From Hyphomicrobiales bacterium (GTDB lineage Bacteria > Pseudomonadota > Alphaproteobacteria > Rhizobiales > HXMU1428-3), in contig JAEPQF010000023.1 in the NCBI GenBank assembly GCA_017640685.1, positions 1-35,815 on the forward strand: DNA of 35,815 nt, read 5' to 3'. Both the position numbers and the translations under genes were made by a program. Below the pieces are notes generated by a model that did no database searches, was not told the origin of the DNA, and worked only from the letters and a program-made list of their open reading frames with translations. Of the stretch, positions 6,996-16,530 are shown one piece after another (the first letter of the stretch is position 1; each line of letters opens with the position of its first letter).

Positions 6996-7517
6996 TTATT
7001 TAAAACTGATTTTTAATCCCATTTCGTTTTTCATATATAGAAGAGCTTCTGCGTTCCCCATGGCATCATCAACAGGGTTATGCGTGTGTTTGGTTTTTCT
7101 TAAATGTTTGAAATTTTTAAACGTATCTTTTACCAACCCTTTATAAAGAGACCCCAGGTTTGTTGAGCTAAATCCAAACAGATTTTTTTCTAAAAAATGA
7201 ATGAAATACCAATTGATAAACTGCCAATCAAAACCGTTATTATCACTAAAAAATAAAGGTCGACTTTTGCAATTTTCATTGAGCCATTGGTTAAAGTTTT
7301 CCATTACAATTTTGGGCTCATCAAATTCTAAAACCTCAGCTCTTGTAAAGCCTGAGACTGCGAGTGCTTCGGGTATCCATTTTTCACTTATTGGTTTTAG
7401 TTTACCGTAAAATGTTTTATCCAGATCTTGGTCTACGATCACTGCACCAAAAGAGGTCATTGAATAATCTCCTGGAATGGGCCCATCACTTTCAACATCG
7501 ACCATTACAATTGTCAT
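6996..7517 (-). CDS. DEDDh 3'-5' exonuclease, RNase T-like
   Basis: A 173-residue single-domain exonuclease of the DnaQ/RNase T superfamily. The metal-binding acidic residues and the catalytic histidine can be placed: Asp7 and Glu9 (VDVESDGP), Asp97 (GFDWQF), His146 and Asp151 (HNPVDDAMGNAEAL). The N-terminus MVDVESDGPIPGDYSM is typical of a bacterial 3'-5' exoribonuclease-like family. The DNA or RNA preference cannot be told from sequence. It lies just downstream of the RNA-repair genes in the same orientation but beyond a hairpin terminator, so an RNA-processing link to rtcB is possible though not shown. Confidence 0.8.
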   Translation of the reverse strand: MTIVMVDVESDGPIPGDYSMTSFGAVIVDQDLDKTFYGKLKPISEKWIPEALAVSGFTRAEVLEFDEPKIVMENFNQWLNENCKSRPLFFSDNNGFDWQFINWYFIHFLEKNLFGFSSTNLGSLYKGLVKDTFKNFKHLRKTKHTHNPVDDAMGNAEALLYMKNEMGLKISFK

Positions 7518-7693: not shown

Positions 7694-9094
7694 TCATCGT
7701 CTTTTCTTCTTTTTATTGAGCCATGGCTTTGGCTGGTCGCCGGCCATGATGCAGCCGTATGGATCGATATAATCTTCGATTTCTGCAAGTTCATATTTCT
7801 CTATTTGCTGAACAACAGCTTCAGCATTTTTATAACCAGATGGTAATTCCGAAGGATCAATATTGCCTCCAAAAAACCGAATATCCAAACCTTCTGTTTC
7901 CAAGGCTAGCATTTGTTCTGCTGTCATATTTCCCATCCGGCGGCGATGTTCAGCCCGAGAAAAATTGCGCCCAGCCCCATGAGGACTAAACCCTAGACCA
8001 TGCTCAGCATCTTTGCCACGCACGACCAAAATTGGCTCTGCCATATTAAGCGGAATAAGCGTCAATCCTGTTGCATCGCTCGCAAAATCATCCCAAGCAG
8101 GCGTGGCCCCTTTACCGTGATAAAACAAATCATCACGCTTAAAGACGAAATTATGTTCGTTCCAAAACCGATCTTCATGTTCAACTTCAAGCACATCACA
8201 TGTTGCCTGATGCAATGCATTATGATTGGCCTTTGTCCACTTTCTAATTAATTGCAAAGCTTGCCAATACTCTTGACCTTCCTCACTATCGGCCGGGATC
8301 CAGGCATTTTGCTTCAAGGTTTTAGGAGATAATTTTTTGCGGAATTGTTCCGCCACTTTCATACCTTCCTTATAAAGCAAAGCCCCTGGCCCACGTGAAC
8401 CATGATGGGTAACAAGCGCAGCTTTTCCTGTGCTACGTGATTTTCCAACGAAAGCAAAATGATTACCATCTCCTTGTGTCCCCATATGTTCTTGAGCACT
8501 ACGTAAAAGTTTTTTGCCATTTAAAAACCTATTCTCACGGAATTGATCAAGAAGATCTAATGACACAGTAAACCGTTTGCCATTAGGCCGACCACCGAAA
8601 CCAAAATGCGTCACCTCATTCACAGCATCTAAAACAGTTTTTGGATCGGAGTTGCCAAAATTCGTCATCATGACTGAGCAGCAAATATCAGCGCTATGCA
8701 TACCTGGATGAATGGCTTTTTTAGTCGCGACCACACCACCCACTGGAATTGTACCAATTGGACCAGCCGGACACGCATCTGGCATCACAGCACCAGCTTC
8801 TACTGTTGGCGTGCGCATAAGTTCTGTCATTGTTTCCGAAACTCTGAGAATATTTTCTTTTTCATCTGGATTTGAAGCTTCAATATTTATAGAAAACTCC
8901 AACTCACCTTCATTTCTTAAAGGAATGGTTGGCTCTGGTTTGTATGCTTCCAACATCGCACGAACTTCATCAAGGCTTTTTCCCTCATTCAACGCTGCAC
9001 TACCATCACGTAAAGCCGCGCCAAATTCTTTCCCTGGTTTATGCCCCCAAGACAAAAGTGTATCACTGGTCAATTTAATTGTAGTTTCAATCAT
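7694..9094 (-). CDS. rtcB: RtcB family RNA ligase
   Basis: A 466-residue GTP- and Mn2+-dependent ligase joining RNA 3'-phosphate or 2',3'-cyclic phosphate ends to 5'-OH ends, as made by toxin nucleases or tRNA breakage. Visible motifs are HSADICCSV (Asp136, Cys139 metal ligands), GTQGDGNHF (His212), THHGSRGPG (His231), NEHNF (His315) and SPHGAGR, whose His372 is the residue guanylylated in the family. It is longer than E. coli RtcB (408 residues) and ends in a basic KKKKRR tail. It is the last gene of a minus-strand unit with rsr and the ncRNA array. No rtcA cyclase is beside it. The ATG is 48 bases after the last Y-like RNA; the ribosome site (CGAGAT) is weak. Confidence 0.93.
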   Translation of the reverse strand: MIETTIKLTSDTLLSWGHKPGKEFGAALRDGSAALNEGKSLDEVRAMLEAYKPEPTIPLRNEGELEFSINIEASNPDEKENILRVSETMTELMRTPTVEAGAVMPDACPAGPIGTIPVGGVVATKKAIHPGMHSADICCSVMMTNFGNSDPKTVLDAVNEVTHFGFGGRPNGKRFTVSLDLLDQFRENRFLNGKKLLRSAQEHMGTQGDGNHFAFVGKSRSTGKAALVTHHGSRGPGALLYKEGMKVAEQFRKKLSPKTLKQNAWIPADSEEGQEYWQALQLIRKWTKANHNALHQATCDVLEVEHEDRFWNEHNFVFKRDDLFYHGKGATPAWDDFASDATGLTLIPLNMAEPILVVRGKDAEHGLGFSPHGAGRNFSRAEHRRRMGNMTAEQMLALETEGLDIRFFGGNIDPSELPSGYKNAEAVVQQIEKYELAEIEDYIDPYGCIMAGDQPKPWLNKKKKRR

Positions 9095-9142: not shown

Positions 9143-9287
9143 TGAGGGCAAGTTGTTAGTAAGATATATATTTCCGCCATCGAATTTCTTCGAGCTGGAC
9201 TTGAACCAGCACGGTCTGAGTTTCCTCAAAACCATTCTTCTCAATGAGAAAAATTGCGTCTCCCTGTAATCCTACTGGCATCCCTCA
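9143..9287 (-). ncRNA. Y-RNA-like ncRNA, copy Y5 (T-arm plus GAAA-capped stem)
   Basis: The copy nearest rtcB. The closing helix TGAGGG/CCCTCA (9282-9287 with 9143-9148) is followed by the internal loop ATGCC versus AACAACTTG, then an 8-bp helix AGTAGGAT/ATCTTACT (9269-9276 with 9158-9165) with one G-U pair. The head differs from the others. It has a canonical T-arm GCTGG-TTCAAGT-CCAGC (9194-9210), followed at once by TCGAA-GAAA-TTCGA (9180-9193), a stem with a GNRA tetraloop where an acceptor stem would be. It also has a second GAAA hairpin, TGAG-GAAA-CTCA (9217-9228). No ordinary D-arm is visible. The call is inferred from shared architecture with its neighbours and from the adjacent rsr. 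Confidence 0.72.
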
Positions 9288-9295
9288 AACTATGC

Positions 9296-9426
9296 GAGCG
9301 ACAAGTATTGATGAAACTTTTCTCCTGCTCTACCGCTGAGCTACACTGCCATAAGTGGTAGCAGTGGCGGGATTCGAACCCGCGACCCGGTCGTCCACAA
9401 CGATGTAGTTCCATCTGCATTCGCTC
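9296..9426 (-). ncRNA. Y-RNA-like ncRNA, copy Y4 (permuted tRNA-like head)
   Basis: Closing helix GAGCGA/TCGCTC (9421-9426 with 9296-9301), internal loop ATGCA versus AATACTTG, and 8-bp helix GATGGAAC/GTTTCATC (9408-9415 with 9310-9317). The head is a tRNA cut open at the anticodon and closed at the acceptor. In transcript order: T-arm GCGGG-TTCGAAT-CCCGC (9367-9383), acceptor 3' strand CACTGCT (9360-9366), ACCA, a five-base linker, acceptor 5' strand GGCAGTG (9344-9350; 7 of 7 pairs, one wobble), TA, then D-arm GCTC-AGCGGTA-GAGC (9327-9341). This is the layout described for tRNA-mimicking YrlA Y RNAs. The copy lies eight bases from copy Y5. Confidence 0.85.
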
Positions 9427-9487
9427 TAAATCATACTTTTCTTTCTTGGCTCTCATAATTATGCGAGACCCTATATCTTCTTAATTT

Positions 9488-9507
9488 ATTGCAAGGTGCA
9501 ATTCCAA
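9488..9507 (-). promoter_or_regulatory. Inverted repeat and near sigma-54-like element in gap before Y4/Y5/rtcB
   Basis: The 101-base gap between the tRNA and copy Y4 is the longest spacer in the array. It holds the inverted repeat ATTGCA-3-TGCAAT (9488-9502). On the minus strand the same bases read TTGGAATTGCACCTTGCA, resembling a -24/-12 promoter but with 11 instead of 10 bases between GG and GC. An AAGATATAGGG segment follows. It may be an internal promoter for Y4, Y5 and rtcB. Confidence 0.25.
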
Positions 9508-9527
9508 TTTACCCCCTTACAAAACTA

Positions 9528-9605
9528 TGGTCAGGGATGAAGGATTTGAACCTTCGGCCTCCGCAGTCCAAGTGCGGCACTCTAACCGGACTGAGCTAAC
9601 CCCTG
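9528..9605 (-). tRNA. tRNA-Pro(UGG)-like gene with encoded CCA
   Basis: Every arm of a canonical cloverleaf can be placed. The acceptor is CAGGGGT with ATCCCTG (C1-G72, one G-U), discriminator A73 and genomic CCA (9528-9530). The D-arm is GCTC/GAGT, the anticodon stem CCGCA/TGCGG, the loop CTTGGAC, the T-arm GAAGG-TTCAAAT-CCTTC, and the variable region five bases. Anticodon UGG (9568-9570) reads proline, and C1-G72 with A73 agrees with bacterial tRNA-Pro identity. Position 37 is A, whereas standard tRNA-Pro has a methylated G37. It lies 12 bases after copy Y3 inside the RNA-repair unit. It may be a spare, decoy or repair-linked tRNA rather than the housekeeping one. Confidence 0.85.
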
Positions 9606-9617
9606 AGTAATTTAGCG

Positions 9618-9745
9618 GGCGACAAGTTTGATGCAAAACGTTCCTGCTCTACCACTGAGCTACGCTGCCATAAATGGTTGCAGCGGCGGGATTCGAACCC
9701 GCGACCTGGCGATTAAGAGTCGATTTAGTTCTGCAAGCATTCGCC
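9618..9745 (-). ncRNA. Y-RNA-like ncRNA, copy Y3 (permuted tRNA-like head)
   Basis: Closing helix GGCGA/TCGCC (9741-9745 with 9618-9622), internal loop ATGCT versus TCAAACTTG, and 8-bp helix TGCAGAAC/GTTTTGCA (9728-9735 with 9632-9639). The head is a permuted tRNA: T-arm GCGGG-TTCGAAT-CCCGC (9686-9702), acceptor CGCTGCA (9679-9685), ACCA and linker, GGCAGCG (9663-9669; 6 of 7 pairs), TA, D-arm GCTC-AGTGGTA-GAGC (9646-9660). There is no anticodon loop; the Y-type stem sits in its place. It is clearly a paralogue of copy Y4, with the TGCA of its 8-bp helix changed on both sides so that pairing is kept. Confidence 0.85.
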
Positions 9746-9770
9746 ATAAATTTTACAATTTCTATTTTTG

Positions 9771-9908
9771 TTTTGACGACAAGTTCTTAATGAAACTTGA
9801 AAAGCCGGTGCTCTGAAGCTTTTGAGCTACAATATTGTTTTTTACATTGATATGGCGCCACTCACATAACCTCCGGCGTGAATGTAGTTCCATTGGCATT
9901 CGTCAAAA
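9771..9908 (-). ncRNA. Y-RNA-like ncRNA, copy Y2 (decayed tRNA-like head)
   Basis: Closing helix TTTTGACGA/TCGTCAAAA (9 bp; 9900-9908 with 9771-9779), internal loop ATGCC versus AAGAACTTG, and 8-bp helix AATGGAAC/GTTTCATT (9887-9894 with 9789-9796). The head keeps the order of a permuted tRNA but has diverged. It has GCCGG/CCGGC at the base (9873-9877 with 9804-9808), an acceptor-like CAATGT/ATATTG (9844-9849 with 9830-9835), TA, and a D-stem GCTC/GAGC (9824-9827 with 9810-9813) whose loop lacks GG. No standard T-loop is left. This copy may bind Rsr without mimicking tRNA well. Confidence 0.75.
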
Positions 9909-9942
9909 TTTAATTTAATTACAAATCATTTTATTCTTATGT

Positions 9943-10014
9943 CCTGGTGACAAGGTTTGATGAAACAGCTTTTGTCATACCTAAAATGATGTAGTTCCAT
10001 CCGCATTCACCAGG
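9943..10014 (-). ncRNA. Y-RNA-like ncRNA, copy Y1 (minimal, no tRNA-like head)
   Basis: The shortest copy (72 nt) and the first after rsr. Closing helix CCTGGTGA/TCACCAGG (8 bp; 10007-10014 with 9943-9950), internal loop ATGCG versus AAACCTTG, and 8-bp helix GATGGAAC/GTTTCATC (9994-10001 with 9959-9966). The head is a 27-nt loop that can form only a weak TTTT/AAAA hairpin. It shows what the shared Rsr-binding module looks like alone and so helps delimit the other copies. Confidence 0.8.
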
Positions 10015-10031: not shown

Positions 10032-10062
10032 TGGAAGCGGATGGGTATCTCACCCGCTTCCA
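10032..10062. terminator. Hairpin just downstream of rsr
   Basis: A perfect 9-bp stem TGGAAGCGG/CCGCTTCCA (10032-10040 with 10054-10062) begins ten bases after the rsr stop. A T6 run follows it only on the plus strand (10063-10068), so in the rsr direction it lacks a U tract. It may be a 3'-protective or processing hairpin between the mRNA and the ncRNAs, or a block to antisense transcription. Confidence 0.5.
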
Positions 10063-10071
10063 TTTTTTCTA

Positions 10072-11628
10072 TTACAGTTTTACTGCTTCAATTTCCCCGA
10101 CCCAATGATCTGGACCCAGGCGATCTTCAGCAAAAGCTGCAATTTGGTCAAAGACCGCATCAGAAAATCCACCAATGTTTAAAACATCTGGTCGTGATGG
10201 CACTTGTGTCGTTCCATATGGCGCGATATCGATGCAAACCAATTTGGCTTTTGGGTTTCGTTTTTTAAGCGTTTCCCAATTTTTCATCATCATCGTGCCT
10301 CTGTTATAACGATTGGCATCCGCCCATGATTCATTATCTGAAACAAAGATAACCAAATCAGGTGCTTGTTTTCTGGCAATCAACCATTCTAATGGTGCTG
10401 AACAATTTGTTCCGCCGCCAGCAAGATCCGTTAATCGCTTCGCGTTTGTTAAAACTGTATCTCGAGCTTCTAGCTGCGTCTTGCAAACTTTAAACTCAAA
10501 CGGTAACACTGTTGCCCCGCGGTTGCGGCGCAAAAATGCTGCTGAAACAAGAGCTGCTACATGAACAAATCTTGTTGATGTTGTTGCTCCTTTTCGATAC
10601 CCGGTCACAGGTGATAACATTGAGCCGGAAACGTCTGGGCAGATTACCACCTGACCTTTGATCTTAGGCACGTTTGCTACTGCAATTTCCATTGCGTCGT
10701 GCAAGGCGTCCCTGATTTCTGCAGGAATATCTACAGAAAGTGATTGATAGGCCGTCATCAATTGATACGGGAATACCCGTGCCTTTTTGATGCGTGTTGG
10801 ATCTCTTAAAATTTCAGCAACATCTTTTGTTACACCTTTGATGCCAAAAGCACCTTGGCGATGGAATGTGTTTAAGTTCATGCGAACCATTTGCCAGCTA
10901 CCGCCGCGCGCAATTTTTGCCCATTTTTTTGCCGTCAACGGCAAATGCGTTAACATTTGAAACGGGACGTCCGGTAATGGGCCGCCTTCATTTTCTTTAT
11001 AGGCAATATACTCACGCACTTCTTGCGGCAATTGCGACACATCGCATGGTTTACCAATTATCCAGGCAAAAAATGCTTCACGCATTTTATCATCCGGTTT
11101 TGGGTGCACCATCTTAATCACATCAGCCAATGATGGATCATTACCAACATTTGCTTGCAATAACTGACGAACCGTTGCTCTTTTCAACCAACCGGAAACA
11201 AGAGCCTTTGGACGTGTGCCCAAAGACTTTCGACCCGTTTGACCAGAGCGCATGATTTGAACAAAGTTGCGCAACATTTTTCCGTTTGTCACAACTCGAG
11301 GGAAGGTATTTGAAAAAAGCTCTGTATCCCTTGATGCCAAGATCGCTAGCAATAGAGCTGGCATATCTTTCATATGTCCTTTTTCTCGAACATAAATAGC
11401 CGCTTTTGCCAAAAACTCAGGTGAAACATTTTTTGCGGTGTCTAGTATTGCCTCAAGCTCAACATTTGCTTGTTGGTAATATAGATCGCTTATTGTTCCG
11501 GTCATTGCGAGTTGTGCCAACAAATGTTGGTCACCATATGCATAGGCCGGAGCCCCTTCTTTATTTACAGCATCAGTTTTCGGGATCATTCTACCGCGCC
11601 CTGATGCAAACACAGATTTGTTAGCCAT
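10072..11628 (-). CDS. rsr: Rsr, bacterial Ro60 homologue (TROVE + vWA)
   Basis: A 518-residue ring-shaped RNA-binding protein. Residues about 25-320 form the TROVE HEAT-like ring (for example KGHMKDMPALLLAILASRD and FPYQLMTAYQSL). Residues about 325-510 form a von Willebrand A domain with an intact metal site: DVSGS (Asp332, Ser334, Ser336), Thr407 in GGGTNCS and Asp431 in FVSDNES. Bacterial Rsr binds Y RNAs and, with PNPase, guides degradation of structured or misfolded RNA. A full AAGGAAGAG ribosome site precedes the ATG. It heads the minus-strand unit that continues with the ncRNA array and rtcB, and is divergent from rtcR by 171 bases. Confidence 0.93.
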   Translation of the reverse strand: MANKSVFASGRGRMIPKTDAVNKEGAPAYAYGDQHLLAQLAMTGTISDLYYQQANVELEAILDTAKNVSPEFLAKAAIYVREKGHMKDMPALLLAILASRDTELFSNTFPRVVTNGKMLRNFVQIMRSGQTGRKSLGTRPKALVSGWLKRATVRQLLQANVGNDPSLADVIKMVHPKPDDKMREAFFAWIIGKPCDVSQLPQEVREYIAYKENEGGPLPDVPFQMLTHLPLTAKKWAKIARGGSWQMVRMNLNTFHRQGAFGIKGVTKDVAEILRDPTRIKKARVFPYQLMTAYQSLSVDIPAEIRDALHDAMEIAVANVPKIKGQVVICPDVSGSMLSPVTGYRKGATTSTRFVHVAALVSAAFLRRNRGATVLPFEFKVCKTQLEARDTVLTNAKRLTDLAGGGTNCSAPLEWLIARKQAPDLVIFVSDNESWADANRYNRGTMMMKNWETLKKRNPKAKLVCIDIAPYGTTQVPSRPDVLNIGGFSDAVFDQIAAFAEDRLGPDHWVGEIEAVKL

Positions 11629-11799: not shown

Positions 11800-13377
11800 A
11801 TGAAAAATAATGTTGTTATTGGCTTCCTCGGCACGAATTTAGATGCCGGCAAGAAAAAACGTTGGCGCCCTTCTCCCTCGCTCACCAAGCACGAGGCGTT
11901 TCCAGTTGAGCGTTTAGAACTAATCTATGATCGTCATCATTCAAACCTGGCGCATTCAATCAAAACAGAGATTGAAACCGAGACACCTGAAACAGAAGTG
12001 CTCCTTCAGCTTATAGATTTAAATAACCCTTGGGATTTCCAGGAAGTTTACGGTGCCTTATTTGACTTTGCTCGGAATTATGAATTTGATGAAGAACGTG
12101 AGAACTATCATGTTCACCTCACAACAGGTACGCACGTCGCCCAAATTTGCTGGTTTTTATTAACTGAGTCTCGTCACATTCCGGCGCGGTTATTACAGAC
12201 CGCGCCTCCTCGAAAAGAGGAGCACGGACCTGAGGGACAGATTAATATTATTGATTTAGACCTCTCTAAATATAACGCCCTACAACAGCGTTTTGATCTC
12301 ATCTCAGATGAATATAACGCCCTGTTAAAAGCTGGGATAAACACCCGCAATAAAGAATTTAATCAGCTTATAGAAAGAATAGAGCTGGTTGCGACAACAA
12401 CAGACGCTCCTCTGCTCTTACTTGGCGCGACCGGGACAGGTAAATCTGAGCTTGCAGAACGAATTTACGAACTGAAACTTCAACGACGCCGCGTTAAGGG
12501 GCGGTTTATTCATGTGAATTGCTCCACTTTAAGAGGGGAGCGCGCTATGTCTAATCTCTTTGGTCATCGCCGTGGCGCCTTTTCAGGTGCGCCCAATGAT
12601 CGAAGGGGTTTATTACGTGAGGCGGATGGTGGTGTTCTATTTCTTGATGAGATTGATGAATTGGGACAAGACGAACAAGCGATGATCTTACATGCTATTG
12701 AAACTGGTAAGTTCTTCCCCTTGGGATCTGATCATGAGATTACAAGCAAGTTCCAACTCATTGCCGGCGCAAATCGTGATCTTGGAAAACTCGTCTCGAA
12801 AGGTTTATTCAGGCCTGACCTATTTGCTCGCTTGAATTTATGGACATTTAATCTCCCAGCGCTGCAAGATCGACGCGAAGATATTGAACCTAACATTGAG
12901 TTTGAATTAAACAGAGCTGAACAAAGCTTAGGGATAAAGGTGGGGTTTAACGCTGATGCAATCAAGAAATATACTCGTTTTGCAACGGACCCCGCTACAT
13001 TATGGCCTGGTAATTTCAGAGATCTTGGTGCTTCTGTTCAACGCTTGTGCACCTTGGCCCCTCGGGGACGCGTCACTTCAGCAATGGTTGAGCATGAAAT
13101 TAACTCATTACAATATCAATGGGCGAGCGCTGAAGATAATCAAGACGACAAGCTTATCCGGCAATTTCTAGGATCAGATACTGATAAGATTGATCCTTTT
13201 GATAAAGTCCAACTGGGTCTTGTTATTCGCACCTGCCAACAAAGCAAATCCCTCAGTTCTGCAGGACGCACACTTTTTTCAGCTTCTCGCCAAAACAAAA
13301 ACACTAAGAATGATGCTGATCGCTTAAGGAAATATCTAGAGAAATTTTCATTAAACTGGAAAGACATCGCTAAATGA
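11800..13377 (+). CDS. rtcR: RtcR, CARF-sensor sigma-54 activator of the RNA-repair operon
   Basis: A 525-residue enhancer-binding protein. Residues 1-about 160 form the RtcR-specific CARF-like ligand domain (IGFLGTNLDAG, NPWDFQEVYGALFDFAR, HLTTGTHVAQICWFLL), thought to sense RNA-damage products. The AAA+ domain has Walker A GATGTGKS (209-216) and Walker B LFLDE (280-284). The sigma-54 contact loop reads GAFSGA (259-264) instead of the usual GAFTGA. The C-terminus (about 485-516, LSSAGRTLFSASRQ) is the DNA-binding helix-turn-helix. It is transcribed away from rsr, the standard arrangement for control of a divergent operon. No strong ribosome site precedes the ATG, but the N-terminus aligns with known RtcR. 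Confidence 0.93.
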   Translation: MKNNVVIGFLGTNLDAGKKKRWRPSPSLTKHEAFPVERLELIYDRHHSNLAHSIKTEIETETPETEVLLQLIDLNNPWDFQEVYGALFDFARNYEFDEERENYHVHLTTGTHVAQICWFLLTESRHIPARLLQTAPPRKEEHGPEGQINIIDLDLSKYNALQQRFDLISDEYNALLKAGINTRNKEFNQLIERIELVATTTDAPLLLLGATGTGKSELAERIYELKLQRRRVKGRFIHVNCSTLRGERAMSNLFGHRRGAFSGAPNDRRGLLREADGGVLFLDEIDELGQDEQAMILHAIETGKFFPLGSDHEITSKFQLIAGANRDLGKLVSKGLFRPDLFARLNLWTFNLPALQDRREDIEPNIEFELNRAEQSLGIKVGFNADAIKKYTRFATDPATLWPGNFRDLGASVQRLCTLAPRGRVTSAMVEHEINSLQYQWASAEDNQDDKLIRQFLGSDTDKIDPFDKVQLGLVIRTCQQSKSLSSAGRTLFSASRQNKNTKNDADRLRKYLEKFSLNWKDIAK

Positions 13378-14103: not shown

Positions 14104-14133
14104 TTGACTTTGTTAACGCTTTATTAATAGATT
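14104..14133 (+). promoter_or_regulatory. Putative sigma-70 promoter of the B12 operon
   Basis: TTGACT (14104-14109) and TAGATT (14128-14133) are 18 bases apart. The predicted start near 14140 falls just at the 5' edge of the cobalamin aptamer, as expected. Confidence 0.5.
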
Positions 14134-14144
14134 GCACGCACACG

Positions 14145-14360
14145 TCGGTTCCTATTGTTTTTTAAAGCAATCGGTGAAAAGGGAACACGGAAATAGACAG
14201 CAAGATTGACCTCTTGCATTAGTGCTTTAACCGTGGCTGCCCCCGCAACTGTAAGCGTTGAGCATATGTTCAAATGCGCCACTTCGAACAAATTATTTTG
14301 TTCTTGGGAAGGCCGAACATTATGCGTTGACCCGCAAGCCAGGAGACCTGCCAGCGTGAC
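14145..14360 (+). ncRNA. Cobalamin (AdoCbl-type) riboswitch
   Basis: The aptamer is recognisable from its conserved blocks in order: CGGTTCC pairing with GGGAACACGG, then GGCTGCCCCCGCAACTGTAA, GCGCCACT, GGGAAGGCCGAA and the B12 box AGCCAGGAGACCTGCC (14337-14352). It lies in the leader of btuB. Binding of cobalamin would shut off the B12 uptake operon. No intrinsic terminator with a U tract lies between the aptamer and btuB, so control is more likely at translation. Confidence 0.95.
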
Positions 14361-14447
14361 ATCGCCCATCTTGCTTTCGGGGTTTAAGGTAAGAAGAACG
14401 GTTCTCCGGAGTGGTGATTTGTTTCGTCCGCTCTTGGGGAGGTCAGT

Positions 14448-14603
14448 ATGGCTTTTTTCAAATTGTTGTTTATTCCTGCTTTATTCAAGCAGGCTAAATC
14501 CGGCTTTGCCATGAGCGTTTCTAGTAGCGTATTTCATGGAGGTCCGATTTATGGCCAACACTTACAACATTTTCCCTTTAAAAAAACACTTATCTGTAAT
14601 TAG
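14448..14603 (+). CDS. Possible leader ORF overlapping btuB start
   Basis: A 51-codon frame with an excellent ribosome site, GGGGAGG five bases before its ATG. It lies between the riboswitch and btuB and ends 53 bases inside btuB in another frame. It encodes a short hydrophobic then polar peptide (MAFFKLLFIPALF at the start) with no recognised domain. A 7-bp hairpin CCTGCTT/AAGCAGG (14475-14493) lies within it. It may couple translation to btuB or be the part actually gated by the riboswitch. It could also be chance; there is no homology evidence. Confidence 0.4.
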   Translation: MAFFKLLFIPALFKQAKSGFAMSVSSSVFHGGPIYGQHLQHFPFKKTLICN

Positions 14604-16530
14604 CCTTTGTACCGCTAGTCTATTATTATCTGTTTCACCAACCGTTGCTGAGGAAGCAACAAAACTAGATGAGCTGGTTGTCTCTGCTGGTCGTTTTGCA
14701 ATTGAAGCAGAAAAGCTTGGCAGTGCCACAACAATCATAACACAAGAGCAAATTGAAAATTCAGGTACCACTTATGCAGCAGATCTTTTGCGTAGCCAAC
14801 CCGGTATCGCCATTAACCGAACGGGTGGCCCAGGTGGTTTAACACAGCTAAGACTGCGCGGTGCTGAGGGCAACCATGTTGTGGTTGTTATTGATGGCAT
14901 TGAGGTGAATAATCCTGTACAGGGTGAATTCGATTTTTCTAACCTACTGGCTGAAGATATTGAACGCATTGAAATTTTGCGTGGCCCACAAAGCGCATCC
15001 TGGGGTTCAAATGCCCTTGCTGGTGTTATTAACATCACCACTAAGAAAGCCTCTAAAGGGTTTTCAGCCTCTGCCAAAGCGCAATATGGATCTTTCAATA
15101 GCAAACTCTTTTCTGGTCGTGTCGCAGCAGGAAATGATTATGCACGTCTTGCAATGACACTCACTCATCAAGATACAGACGGGTATAATGTTTCTGATTT
15201 TGGCACCGAGGACGATGGTGATGAGAATACAACATTTTCGGCTAAAGGTGATATCGATGTCACGAAAAACTTTAATATCTCAGGCGTTTTTAGATATTTG
15301 AGACACAATCTTGATTTTGATAATCAGGACTTTGCGTTCCCAGCAACAGCCACGCAAGGACTTGTGATTGATACGAATAATGAAACCCGTAGAAGAGAGC
15401 TTTATGCAAAAACTGAAGCCACTTTAAAATTGTTTGATGATCGCTGGATCCATAAAGCCTTTATTACTGGTGTGGACACTAAATCAAGCAATTATCAAGA
15501 TGAGCTTTTAAGCAGTGGGAATAATGGTGAACGTCTTAATTATGGCTATTCAAGTCAATTTACTTTTGAAACACCGAGTTTTGCCAATGCTCGCCACACC
15601 ATCATTGGCCTTGTTGAAAAGGAAACAGAAAAATTTAGAAACACTGTCCCTTCAAATGCAGCGCAAGCCCAGGAATTTGAACGCGACATAACTGGATATG
15701 TTGCTGAATACCGCCTTGACCTTTTTGACAGCCTCTTTCTAACCGGCGCTTATCGTTTTGATGATAATGATCGCTTTGAAGACGCTGAAACATACCGCTT
15801 AACAACTGCTTATCTTTTGAAAGATACAGGAACCCGCTTCCATGCTTCATATGGTAAAGGGATCACTAACCCAACTTTCTTTGAGCAATTTGGTTTCTCT
15901 CCGGATCGGTTTGATGGGAACCCGAATTTGATCCCTGAAGAATCTATTGGTTGGGATTTTGGTATTGAGCAGTCACTTTTCAATAAACGCCTTGTTGTTG
16001 ATGTGACTTATTTCGAATCTAATCTTGAGAATGAAATTGTATCAACCTTTGATTTTGCAACGTTTCGTTCAAGTGTTGATAATCTGCGTGAAAAAAGTGA
16101 ACGCAAAGGCGTTGAAGTTTCATTTACAGCAAAACCGACTGATCACCTTGATATCATCGGTGCCTATACATACACAGATAGTGTTGAGGTCCGAAATGGG
16201 ATGGAACTATTAGAAGTAAGACGTCCGGAACACACTGCTAGCTTAGATGTGACATATCGTTTCCTTGAAGATCGTGCTCGTGTTAGTGCCGGTGTTGTTT
16301 ACAACGGTAAAAGTGAAGATCTTGAATTTATTTCAAGCACGCCAGAAACACGCGTAACATTAGATGATTACACGCTTTTTCGTTTAAGTGGTTCTTATGA
16401 TATTAGTGAACGTGTTCGTTGGTTTGGGCGCCTTGAGAATGTATTTGACGAAAATTATGAGGAAGTTTTTGGATTTAACACTCCTGGTTTTGCCGCCTAC
16501 ACAGGTGTAAAAATAAACTTAGGAAATTAA
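14551..16530 (+). CDS. btuB: BtuB-type TonB-dependent cobalamin receptor
   Basis: A 659-residue outer-membrane transporter for vitamin B12. A signal peptide ends near VSPTVAEE, the TonB box is LDELVVSAGR, and the plug domain includes VVVVIDGIEVN and IEILRGPQSASWGSNALAGV. The barrel fills the rest, with the C-terminal tail GVKINLGN. The ATG at 14551 has GGAGGT eight bases upstream; an in-frame ATG at 14536 precedes that site and is less likely. Cobalamin as substrate is inferred from the riboswitch upstream and the btuFCD genes downstream, which are in the same direction with almost no gaps. Confidence 0.92.
   Translation: MANTYNIFPLKKHLSVISLCTASLLLSVSPTVAEEATKLDELVVSAGRFAIEAEKLGSATTIITQEQIENSGTTYAADLLRSQPGIAINRTGGPGGLTQLRLRGAEGNHVVVVIDGIEVNNPVQGEFDFSNLLAEDIERIEILRGPQSASWGSNALAGVINITTKKASKGFSASAKAQYGSFNSKLFSGRVAAGNDYARLAMTLTHQDTDGYNVSDFGTEDDGDENTTFSAKGDIDVTKNFNISGVFRYLRHNLDFDNQDFAFPATATQGLVIDTNNETRRRELYAKTEATLKLFDDRWIHKAFITGVDTKSSNYQDELLSSGNNGERLNYGYSSQFTFETPSFANARHTIIGLVEKETEKFRNTVPSNAAQAQEFERDITGYVAEYRLDLFDSLFLTGAYRFDDNDRFEDAETYRLTTAYLLKDTGTRFHASYGKGITNPTFFEQFGFSPDRFDGNPNLIPEESIGWDFGIEQSLFNKRLVVDVTYFESNLENEIVSTFDFATFRSSVDNLREKSERKGVEVSFTAKPTDHLDIIGAYTYTDSVEVRNGMELLEVRRPEHTASLDVTYRFLEDRARVSAGVVYNGKSEDLEFISSTPETRVTLDDYTLFRLSGSYDISERVRWFGRLENVFDENYEEVFGFNTPGFAAYTGVKINLGN

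Follow-up and report, generated by a model that had tools for sequence, protein, structure and literature searches.

Five Y RNA units and an extra tRNA-Pro between rsr and rtcB in an RtcR-type RNA-repair operon of a Hyphomicrobiales bacterium

The Salmonella rsr-yrlBA-rtcBA operon combines RtcR, Rsr, YrlA-type RNA and RtcB in one operon (PMC7790460; here and below, statements on published systems refer to the passages covered of each source). The same combination is present in a contig of a Hyphomicrobiales bacterium (assembly GCA_017640685.1, contig JAEPQF010000023.1), of which positions 1 to 35,815 (35,815 nucleotides, nt) were analyzed and are called the window. The Salmonella operon contains two Y RNAs and rtcA, whereas the window carries five Y units between rsr and rtcB and rtcA was not found; an embedded extra tRNA and a putative permuted tRNA-Leu mimic are likewise the window's own in this comparison. 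The array and the tRNA may make up the noncoding portion of an RNA-repair operon of RtcR type, one that yields several Rsr adaptors and a substitute tRNA, an interpretation to which we assign roughly even chances.

Other described systems share parts of this arrangement. In Anabaena, the repressor TrcR controls rtcB and a trn operon that holds 26 tRNAs (PMC10272220). The likeness to the window lies in normally silent extra tRNAs, RtcB and one regulator relieved in translational stress, but the Anabaena loci are separate, the regulator is a repressor, and the covered passages contain neither Rsr nor Y RNAs. Phage tRNAs (PMC10264068) are also extra copies with an altered anticodon loop, proposed to escape anticodon nucleases. 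They are viral and lie outside a repair operon, whereas the window's tRNA belongs to a cell, and among the operon tRNAs described below Pro is the one type with every copy altered. Mycobacterial tRNA array units (PMC5966550, PMC12803027) resemble the loci described here in redundant tRNAs, variant anticodon domains and a nearby HNH gene, but RtcB and TROVE have 0 occurrences in these two papers, and the arrays are long and often on mobile DNA.

The five units, in the order of the minus strand, are as follows.

9945..10012, minus strand: Y unit U5, 68 nt, short head; stem grammar, no Rfam YrlA match
9774..9905, minus strand: Y unit U4, 132 nt, D-arm motif in the head and no clear T loop; stem grammar, Rfam YrlA 30.7 bits, covariance model R1 36.5 bits
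9617..9746, minus strand: Y unit U3, 130 nt, YrlA head (T arm, acceptor hairpin, D arm); stem grammar, R1, Rfam YrlA 64.9 bits
9296..9426, minus strand: Y unit U2, 131 nt, YrlA head; stem grammar, R1, Rfam YrlA 79.1 bits
9143..9287, minus strand: Y unit U1, 145 nt, putative permuted tRNA-Leu-like head; stem grammar, fold z score -3.91, double changes, rotation match

The units share an element that consists of an outer helix, AUGC, an inner helix, the head, the returning inner helix, CUUG and the returning outer helix. A stem grammar for this two-helix basal stem with its AUGC/CUUG internal loop recovers all five, with 6, 6, 5, 6 and 6 of 6 outer-helix pairs from U5 to U1 and 7 of 7 inner-helix pairs throughout. 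Applied to the same gap, the grammar finds nothing on the reverse strand (0 units), and the counts for mononucleotide shuffles and an upstream control are 0.0 and 0. An earlier reading of the letters (the sequence-only reading) had described five minus-strand units with a common two-helix stem and internal loop, and the grammar confirms them over 9143-10012. The spacing of 8-34 bases that it gave outside the tRNA holds for U1-U2 (8) and U3-U4 (27) but not for U4-U5 (39); U2 and U3 are 190 bases apart, with the tRNA-Pro between them. Read from its sequence, the stem common to the five Y RNAs is the presumed Rsr-binding stem, on which the heads differ.

Rfam holds a YrlA family, RF02553, reportedly described by Chen et al. 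2014, which PMC8394870 cites, with a curated cut-off of 69 bits. With matches viewed up to an E value of 1, U2 alone passes this cut-off (79.1 bits), U3 (64.9) and U4 (30.7) fall below it, and U1 and U5 have no match. U2 and U3 are like the family, with the stem, T arm, acceptor hairpin and D arm in family order. U1 differs in that its stem stands at the D loop and its head resembles a tRNA with a long variable arm, and U5 differs in being almost headless. Relative to dinucleotide shuffles, the folds have z scores of -2.46 (U5), -2.40 (U4), -1.15 (U3), -2.20 (U2) and -3.91 (U1), and the U3 fold is equaled by 30 of 200 shuffles. The minimum-energy folds of U4 and U5 form the outer helix and not the inner one; the U5 centroid, 0.8 kcal/mol higher, does form the inner helix. 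A genome of the same genus (G001, on the contig of locus L048) contains all five units and the tRNA in identical order. The stem and the place beside rsr support the assignment of the five units as Y RNAs, two to three of which are YrlA-like in Rfam. The proposal of Y RNA-like genes between rsr and rtcB thereby gains support from stem, place and, in part, Rfam, and the stem is conserved in a relative as had been anticipated; the covariance search that had been suggested succeeded for U2 and left U3 and U4 below the cut-off and U1 and U5 unmatched.

Arrays of this type were sought in the window and 80 further rsr loci from titled genome records (the best 80 of 237 confirmed, metagenome-assembled genomes included). 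The scanned gap ran from rsr to rtcB, or over a fixed length where rtcB was not seen, and totaled 95 kilobases (kb). The 81 gaps contain 272 grammar units on the rsr strand; their reverse strand has 2, mononucleotide shuffles give 1.0 (the sum of means of five per gap) and upstream sequence (∼3.2 kb per locus) gives 6. At least one unit is present at 79 of the 81 loci (median 3, maximum 8), and loci with one to eight units number 9, 15, 24, 11, 10, 5, 3 and 2. The grammar itself requires pairing, and anchors defined by the 5' motif alone were therefore also taken as a pairing-free test: 186 of 286 form at least 5 of 6 outer-helix pairs with the first downstream CUUG, versus a mean of 78.8 and a maximum of 95 in 200 rounds with swapped partners. 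Y arrays downstream of rsr are thus the usual condition and not peculiar to the window's genome. Accordingly, the expanded Y family of the sequence-only reading stands as several head classes but not as an exceptional array.

A covariance model, R1, was trained on 14 Leu-type units. At E values up to 0.1 it gave 342 matches in 82 sources; all 300 matches listed, among which are the 14 training sequences and not U5, lie on the rsr strand. In 289 alphaproteobacterial genomes (E up to 1e-4, strict filters), R1 matched four, all with rsr, and each match lies <1 kb downstream of that gene. Rsr (E up to 1e-60) was found in 7 of 385 alphaproteobacterial genomes, the window's own included. The six others, which come from an even draw and were examined with 1.5 kb flanks, yielded grammar units in four (4, 3, 2 and 3) and none in two, of which L192 has two units by eye with CTCG, and G062 (L191) has an R1 match. 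Because the grammar overlooks variants such as CTCG and arrays upstream of rsr, the unit counts are lower bounds. Cardiobacterium hominis has five R1 stretches upstream, not downstream, of rsr (L112:4412-4976). YrlA matches in G003 were set aside because they coincide with tRNA genes.

The prevalence of arrays favors an ordinary YrlA locus, with redundant Y RNAs that all work for a single Rsr-PNPase complex, drifting heads, a copy number that sets dosage and a tRNA that is a passenger. This explanation also draws on the shared head of U2 and U3 and on the 63 of 81 gaps (some ending at contig ends or at the fixed length) that have no accepted tRNA call. We consider it possible but unlikely, and the head classes bear on it. 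Head labels assigned to the 272 units by regular expression are T plus D arm (YrlA-like) in 107, T only in 72, short in 61, Leu-like in 14, D only in 7 and other long in 11. The window's U1 was placed under T only through one base, and the Leu-type set was therefore re-drawn (13 units) and also defined by R1, which exceeds 70 bits in 18 of 82 sources, four of them outside the training set. In the window, the sequences indicate two YrlA tRNA mimics, one degenerate head, one nearly headless unit and one permuted tRNA-Leu mimic; the idea that each copy carries a different head fails for U2 and U3, which have the same one. Head classes recur across families with structure and place kept, contrary to simple drift.

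The stem seems to stay constant while heads are swapped: the U4 slot of the same-genus genome G007 retains the stem and bears a different head, by eye of the class found in a unit of Hoeflea L049. The G007 locus (L042, G007:C4:19000-29000) is a decaying copy with a truncated rsr, a broken rtcB and four remaining Y units, one with an exchanged head. NCCA stands between the T and D arms in 41 of the 100 units with that arm order. Because CCA...UGG can simply pair, we do not claim that the acceptor loop of YrlA heads carries a true 3' CCA, as a permuted tRNA processed like a two-piece transfer-messenger RNA would. A Pro-like permuted head (L086, L096, L110, L120 and L121) was rejected, as all five rotated heads rate Met over Pro. 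The heads of Y-like units in Undibacterium (L088:7607-7734) and a metagenome-assembled Burkholderiales genome (L100:7606-7731) hold AACGGTCCTAAGGT, which we take to be a 23S rRNA string; it may be an rRNA mimic or chance.

U1 looks like a circularly permuted tRNA-Leu whose Y stem enters at the D loop, whereas in YrlA (RF02553) the stem replaces the anticodon arm. In its minimum-energy fold, the basal stem is followed by CGC/GCG, as in the tRNA-Leu D stem, by a hairpin at the place of the anticodon arm and a second at that of the variable arm, and by a T arm (GCUGG-UUCAAGU-CCAGC) and an acceptor hairpin. Across 14 sequences, 13 of which were located by the pairing-demanding scan, at least one double change occurs at 20 of the 27 predicted pairs; the D-stem pairs never vary and are hence uninformative. 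GGTAGACGC, which follows the stem, and TGGCGGA, which precedes the returning strand, vary little or not at all. Rotated to the acceptor start and compared with the 35 tRNAs found in the window's genome, the 13 Leu-type heads score best with tRNA-Leu in 11 cases and level-best in one (L079), the exception being L108 (Cys 41, Leu 40); this set was picked by a GGTAGACG-like D-arm motif that itself favors Leu. All 13 rotated heads outscore the best of 100 shuffles, and each has a higher best score than before rotation; without rotation, 9 of the 13 already match Leu best, at lower scores. The Leu-type unit closes its array in 13 of 13. This constant final place and the double-changed pairs also speak against an ordinary YrlA locus. 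An ARAGORN call of tRNA-Leu in L079 was dropped, as it overlaps a Leu-type Y unit (R1 95.9 bits, with R1 trained on that unit).

The resemblance of U1 to tRNA-Leu bears on a decoy function, in which the tRNA and the tRNA-like heads would bind anticodon nucleases or modification enzymes and spare real tRNAs, or would bind RtcR and end the signal. Among three 5' halves first tested in Salmonella, RtcR bound that of tRNA-Leu(UAG) best, and Hughes et al. named YrlA a possible competitive inhibitor of a nuclease (PMC7790460). No YrlA fragments were seen in Salmonella in the same study, which fits an uncut decoy and no contact equally. We rate a decoy function as improbable; the likelihoods of the rival explanations overlap and are not meant to sum to one.

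The second unusual component of the array lies between U3 and U2.

9528..9605, minus strand: extra tRNA-Pro(UGG), anticodon loop CUUGGAC, CCA encoded; ARAGORN, Rfam tRNA 66.7 bits
9428..9527, minus strand: probable second tRNA, decayed; alignment to its G001 counterpart, 64 identical of 106 columns

ARAGORN and Rfam bear out the tRNA that the sequence-only reading placed among the units. It has a cloverleaf, CCA, the UGG anticodon, C1-G72 and A73; we take the last two to be tRNA-Pro identity elements. The window's genome also has a housekeeping tRNA-Pro(UGG) of different sequence on contig C151 and a tRNA-Pro(GGG), as judged from a tRNA family search that scored 150 of 229 candidates. By its sequence, the operon copy is an intact, extra and divergent tRNA-Pro(UGG) on the strand of the Y RNAs. 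Elsewhere in this genome, ARAGORN calls an odd or decayed tRNA-Asn with anticodon ATT and no encoded CCA (G000:C186:26096-26169, L009). The G001 counterpart of 9428-9527 is a less decayed tRNA-like sequence, not called by ARAGORN, and the alignment points to a probable second tRNA that has decayed in the window. The observations of the sequence-only reading are thus confirmed and its interpretation partly supported; it overlooked that the tRNA-Pro is extra, divergent and kept in place in relatives and that U1 looks like a permuted tRNA-Leu.

Across the 95 kb of gaps, 31 tRNAs occur at 18 of the 81 loci, the window included (32 in 19 loci minus the false L079 call). All are on the rsr strand, and they comprise Pro (10), Gln (10), Asn (9), Lys (1) and Ser (1). 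A housekeeping Pro(UGG) accompanies the operon copy in 10 of 10 genomes (64-73% identity between the two in the nine computed), a housekeeping Gln(UUG) does so in 10 of 10 (70-76%), and a housekeeping Asn in 8 of 9 (70-87%), G019 having shown the operon copy alone. The operon Pro copies of L054 and L065 read CGG. All 10 operon Pro copies have A37, where the housekeeping Pro of the same 10 genomes has G37, and A37 also occurs in 3 of 10 operon Gln copies. In nine distinct operon Pro genes (the window and eight relatives), the cloverleaf is 97.9% paired, with double changes at 10 of 21 pairs; 0 of 500 shuffles were as good, and slid controls were 34-48% paired. By this covariation, the operon tRNA-Pro cloverleaf is under selection, which is at odds with a passenger in an ordinary YrlA locus. 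The Asn and Pro copies of Emcibacter L075 and Ponticaulis L111 differ from the copies at the Rhodobacteraceae-like loci, a hint that recruitment occurred more than once.

The tRNA might instead act as a processing signal, at which tRNA-end nucleases cut and free the flanking Y RNAs from a long transcript. Its location inside the array, on the same strand and with short spacers, suits this function, but most arrays have no tRNA call, and any tRNA would serve, yet Pro, Asn and Gln account for 29 of 31 (though many of them go back to one inheritance); we see only a small chance for it. It is very improbable that the tRNA pieces are remnants of a mobile element that had inserted itself into a tRNA gene site. 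The decayed tRNA-like sequence adjoins an intact tRNA, and HNH genes stand beside tRNA arrays, but the operon tRNAs are complete with CCA, unlike the housekeeping gene, covarying and kept in place across genera.

Elsewhere in the loci, 82 tRNAs were found in 779 kb, 70 of them in five arrays. These arrays adjoin the rsr operon and contain 30 (L114:545-4859), 17 (L091:2219-4319), 8 (L084), 10 (L086) and 5 (L106) tRNAs; the 30 of L114 lie directly before rsr. Total tRNA matches per genome are 72 (L091) and 64 (L114), and an HNH gene is near the array in 3 of 3 cases checked (L084, L091 and L114).

The remaining features of the locus are as follows.

11800..13377, plus strand: RtcR, divergent from the operon; Pfam RtcR 6.9e-73, Sigma54_activat 3.7e-45
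10072..11628, minus strand: Rsr, bacterial Ro60 (vWA_Ro60 and TROVE); Pfam vWA_Ro60 1.9e-15, TROVE 2.7e-6
10033..10061, minus strand: hairpin 3' of the rsr stop, GGAAGCGG...CCGCTTCC; read directly, no U tail on the minus strand
7694..9094, minus strand: RtcB RNA ligase; Pfam RtcB 1.2e-34
6996..7517, minus strand: RNase_T-family exonuclease; Pfam RNase_T 9.4e-8

Divergent RtcR, RtcB and Rsr, all identified by Pfam, place the locus among RtcR-type RNA-repair operons; the RtcR sensor domain is termed CARF-type (PMC7790460). The minus-strand order is rsr, U5, U4, U3, tRNA-Pro, the decayed tRNA-like stretch, U2, U1, rtcB and the exonuclease gene, which from its place is probably an operon member. 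No terminator-like site was found on the minus strand between rsr and rtcB, which supports a single operon, and the hairpin after the rsr stop has by-eye counterparts in G001, L049 and L060. After rtcB, where the window has the exonuclease, G001 has two genes for RlaP, an RNA repair nucleotidyltransferase (L041:7685-9465); these and a KptA gene in L051 fit the repair theme. Open reading frames (ORFs) with no Pfam match lie between array and rtcB in L053 (7576-8592), L056 (7860-9026), L059 (7199-9373) and L050 (7464-7889), and chance reading frames across RNA units may account for some of them. Farther along the window, a Cobalamin riboswitch (14129-14369, 95.9 bits) precedes an ORF (14536-16530) whose product, by eye, resembles a TonB-dependent receptor.

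Rsr binds the Y RNA stem, and a Deinococcus radiodurans Y RNA tethers PNPase (PMC4726728, PMC8394870); the array would therefore most simply give Rsr several heads, with the extra tRNA as a substitute. In the proposed sequence of events, tRNAs would be cut, RtcR would sense the halves and the operon would be switched on, its transcript being processed into Y RNAs and a tRNA. Rsr would bind each Y RNA through the common stem. Each head would present a different tRNA-like surface, which would recruit a nuclease, on the model of the D. radiodurans Y RNA with PNPase, or compete for tRNA-acting enzymes. RtcB would rejoin salvageable halves, and the extra tRNA, with an anticodon arm unlike that of the housekeeping copy, would stand in for lost molecules. 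The function of the array and the tRNA, including that of the heads as different adaptors or gates, is inferred from sequence. A wider version, in which broken tRNAs trigger a one-operon repair-and-replace kit of ligase, Rsr adaptors whose heads mimic particular tRNAs in permuted form (tRNA-Leu, with the 5' half bound best by Salmonella RtcR, among them) and nuclease-proof substitute tRNAs with changed anticodon arms, is tentative and on balance doubtful.

The reading of the array as Rsr adaptors with a substitute tRNA is favored by the sigma-54 gene found in the window's genome, and several results weigh against it. A pattern search found no sigma-54-like site in the 260 bp before the window's rsr or before rsr in L048-L051, L060, L091 and L114; such a site is present at 41 of 81 loci. 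The window's assembly (96.7% complete) has no PF01137 match for rtcA, the loss of which cut induction 4.8-fold in a Salmonella truA strain. The rsr-bearing genome G209 has no R1 match under strict filters, yet it has three grammar units. All 10 operon Pro copies have an altered anticodon loop that lacks the G37 of their housekeeping counterparts, but only 3 of 10 Gln copies and none of the 9 Asn copies are altered, and resistance to one nuclease class is thus not general. Resistance of every operon tRNA through loop change is ruled out by the unchanged Asn loops. To the 63 gaps with no accepted tRNA call is added the interdependence of the tRNA-bearing loci, 13 of 18 of which are Rhodobacteraceae-like by the titles of their records. 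In the six further rsr genomes, searched to 1.5 kb, ARAGORN called one tRNA, a tRNA-Ala in L192; the call extends over a Y-like unit and was discarded as false. The L050 Pro copy, with C33 and a weak D arm, may be decaying, and in G007 rsr and rtcB are broken, rtcR was not seen within 10 kb and there is no tRNA.

Judged by title or abstract, no top-ranked literature match dealt with tRNA genes located within rsr-rtcB operons or with a Y RNA of the tRNA-Leu type, and priority is unproven. The apparent permuted tRNA-Leu mimic on a Y stem constitutes a defined class of RNA that goes unrecognized by Rfam 15 in the window. In the published work covered, bacterial Y RNA function was addressed with one or two RNAs at a time, and arrays with recurring head classes make the adaptor idea testable inside one cell. 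A bench test would be worthwhile for the tRNA inside the array and for the Y RNA of tRNA-Leu type. A damage-inducible operon tRNA, if true, would mean that bacteria replace cut tRNAs besides mending them, as proposed for phages, and the chosen isoacceptors (Pro, Asn, Gln and Lys) would point to the nucleases.
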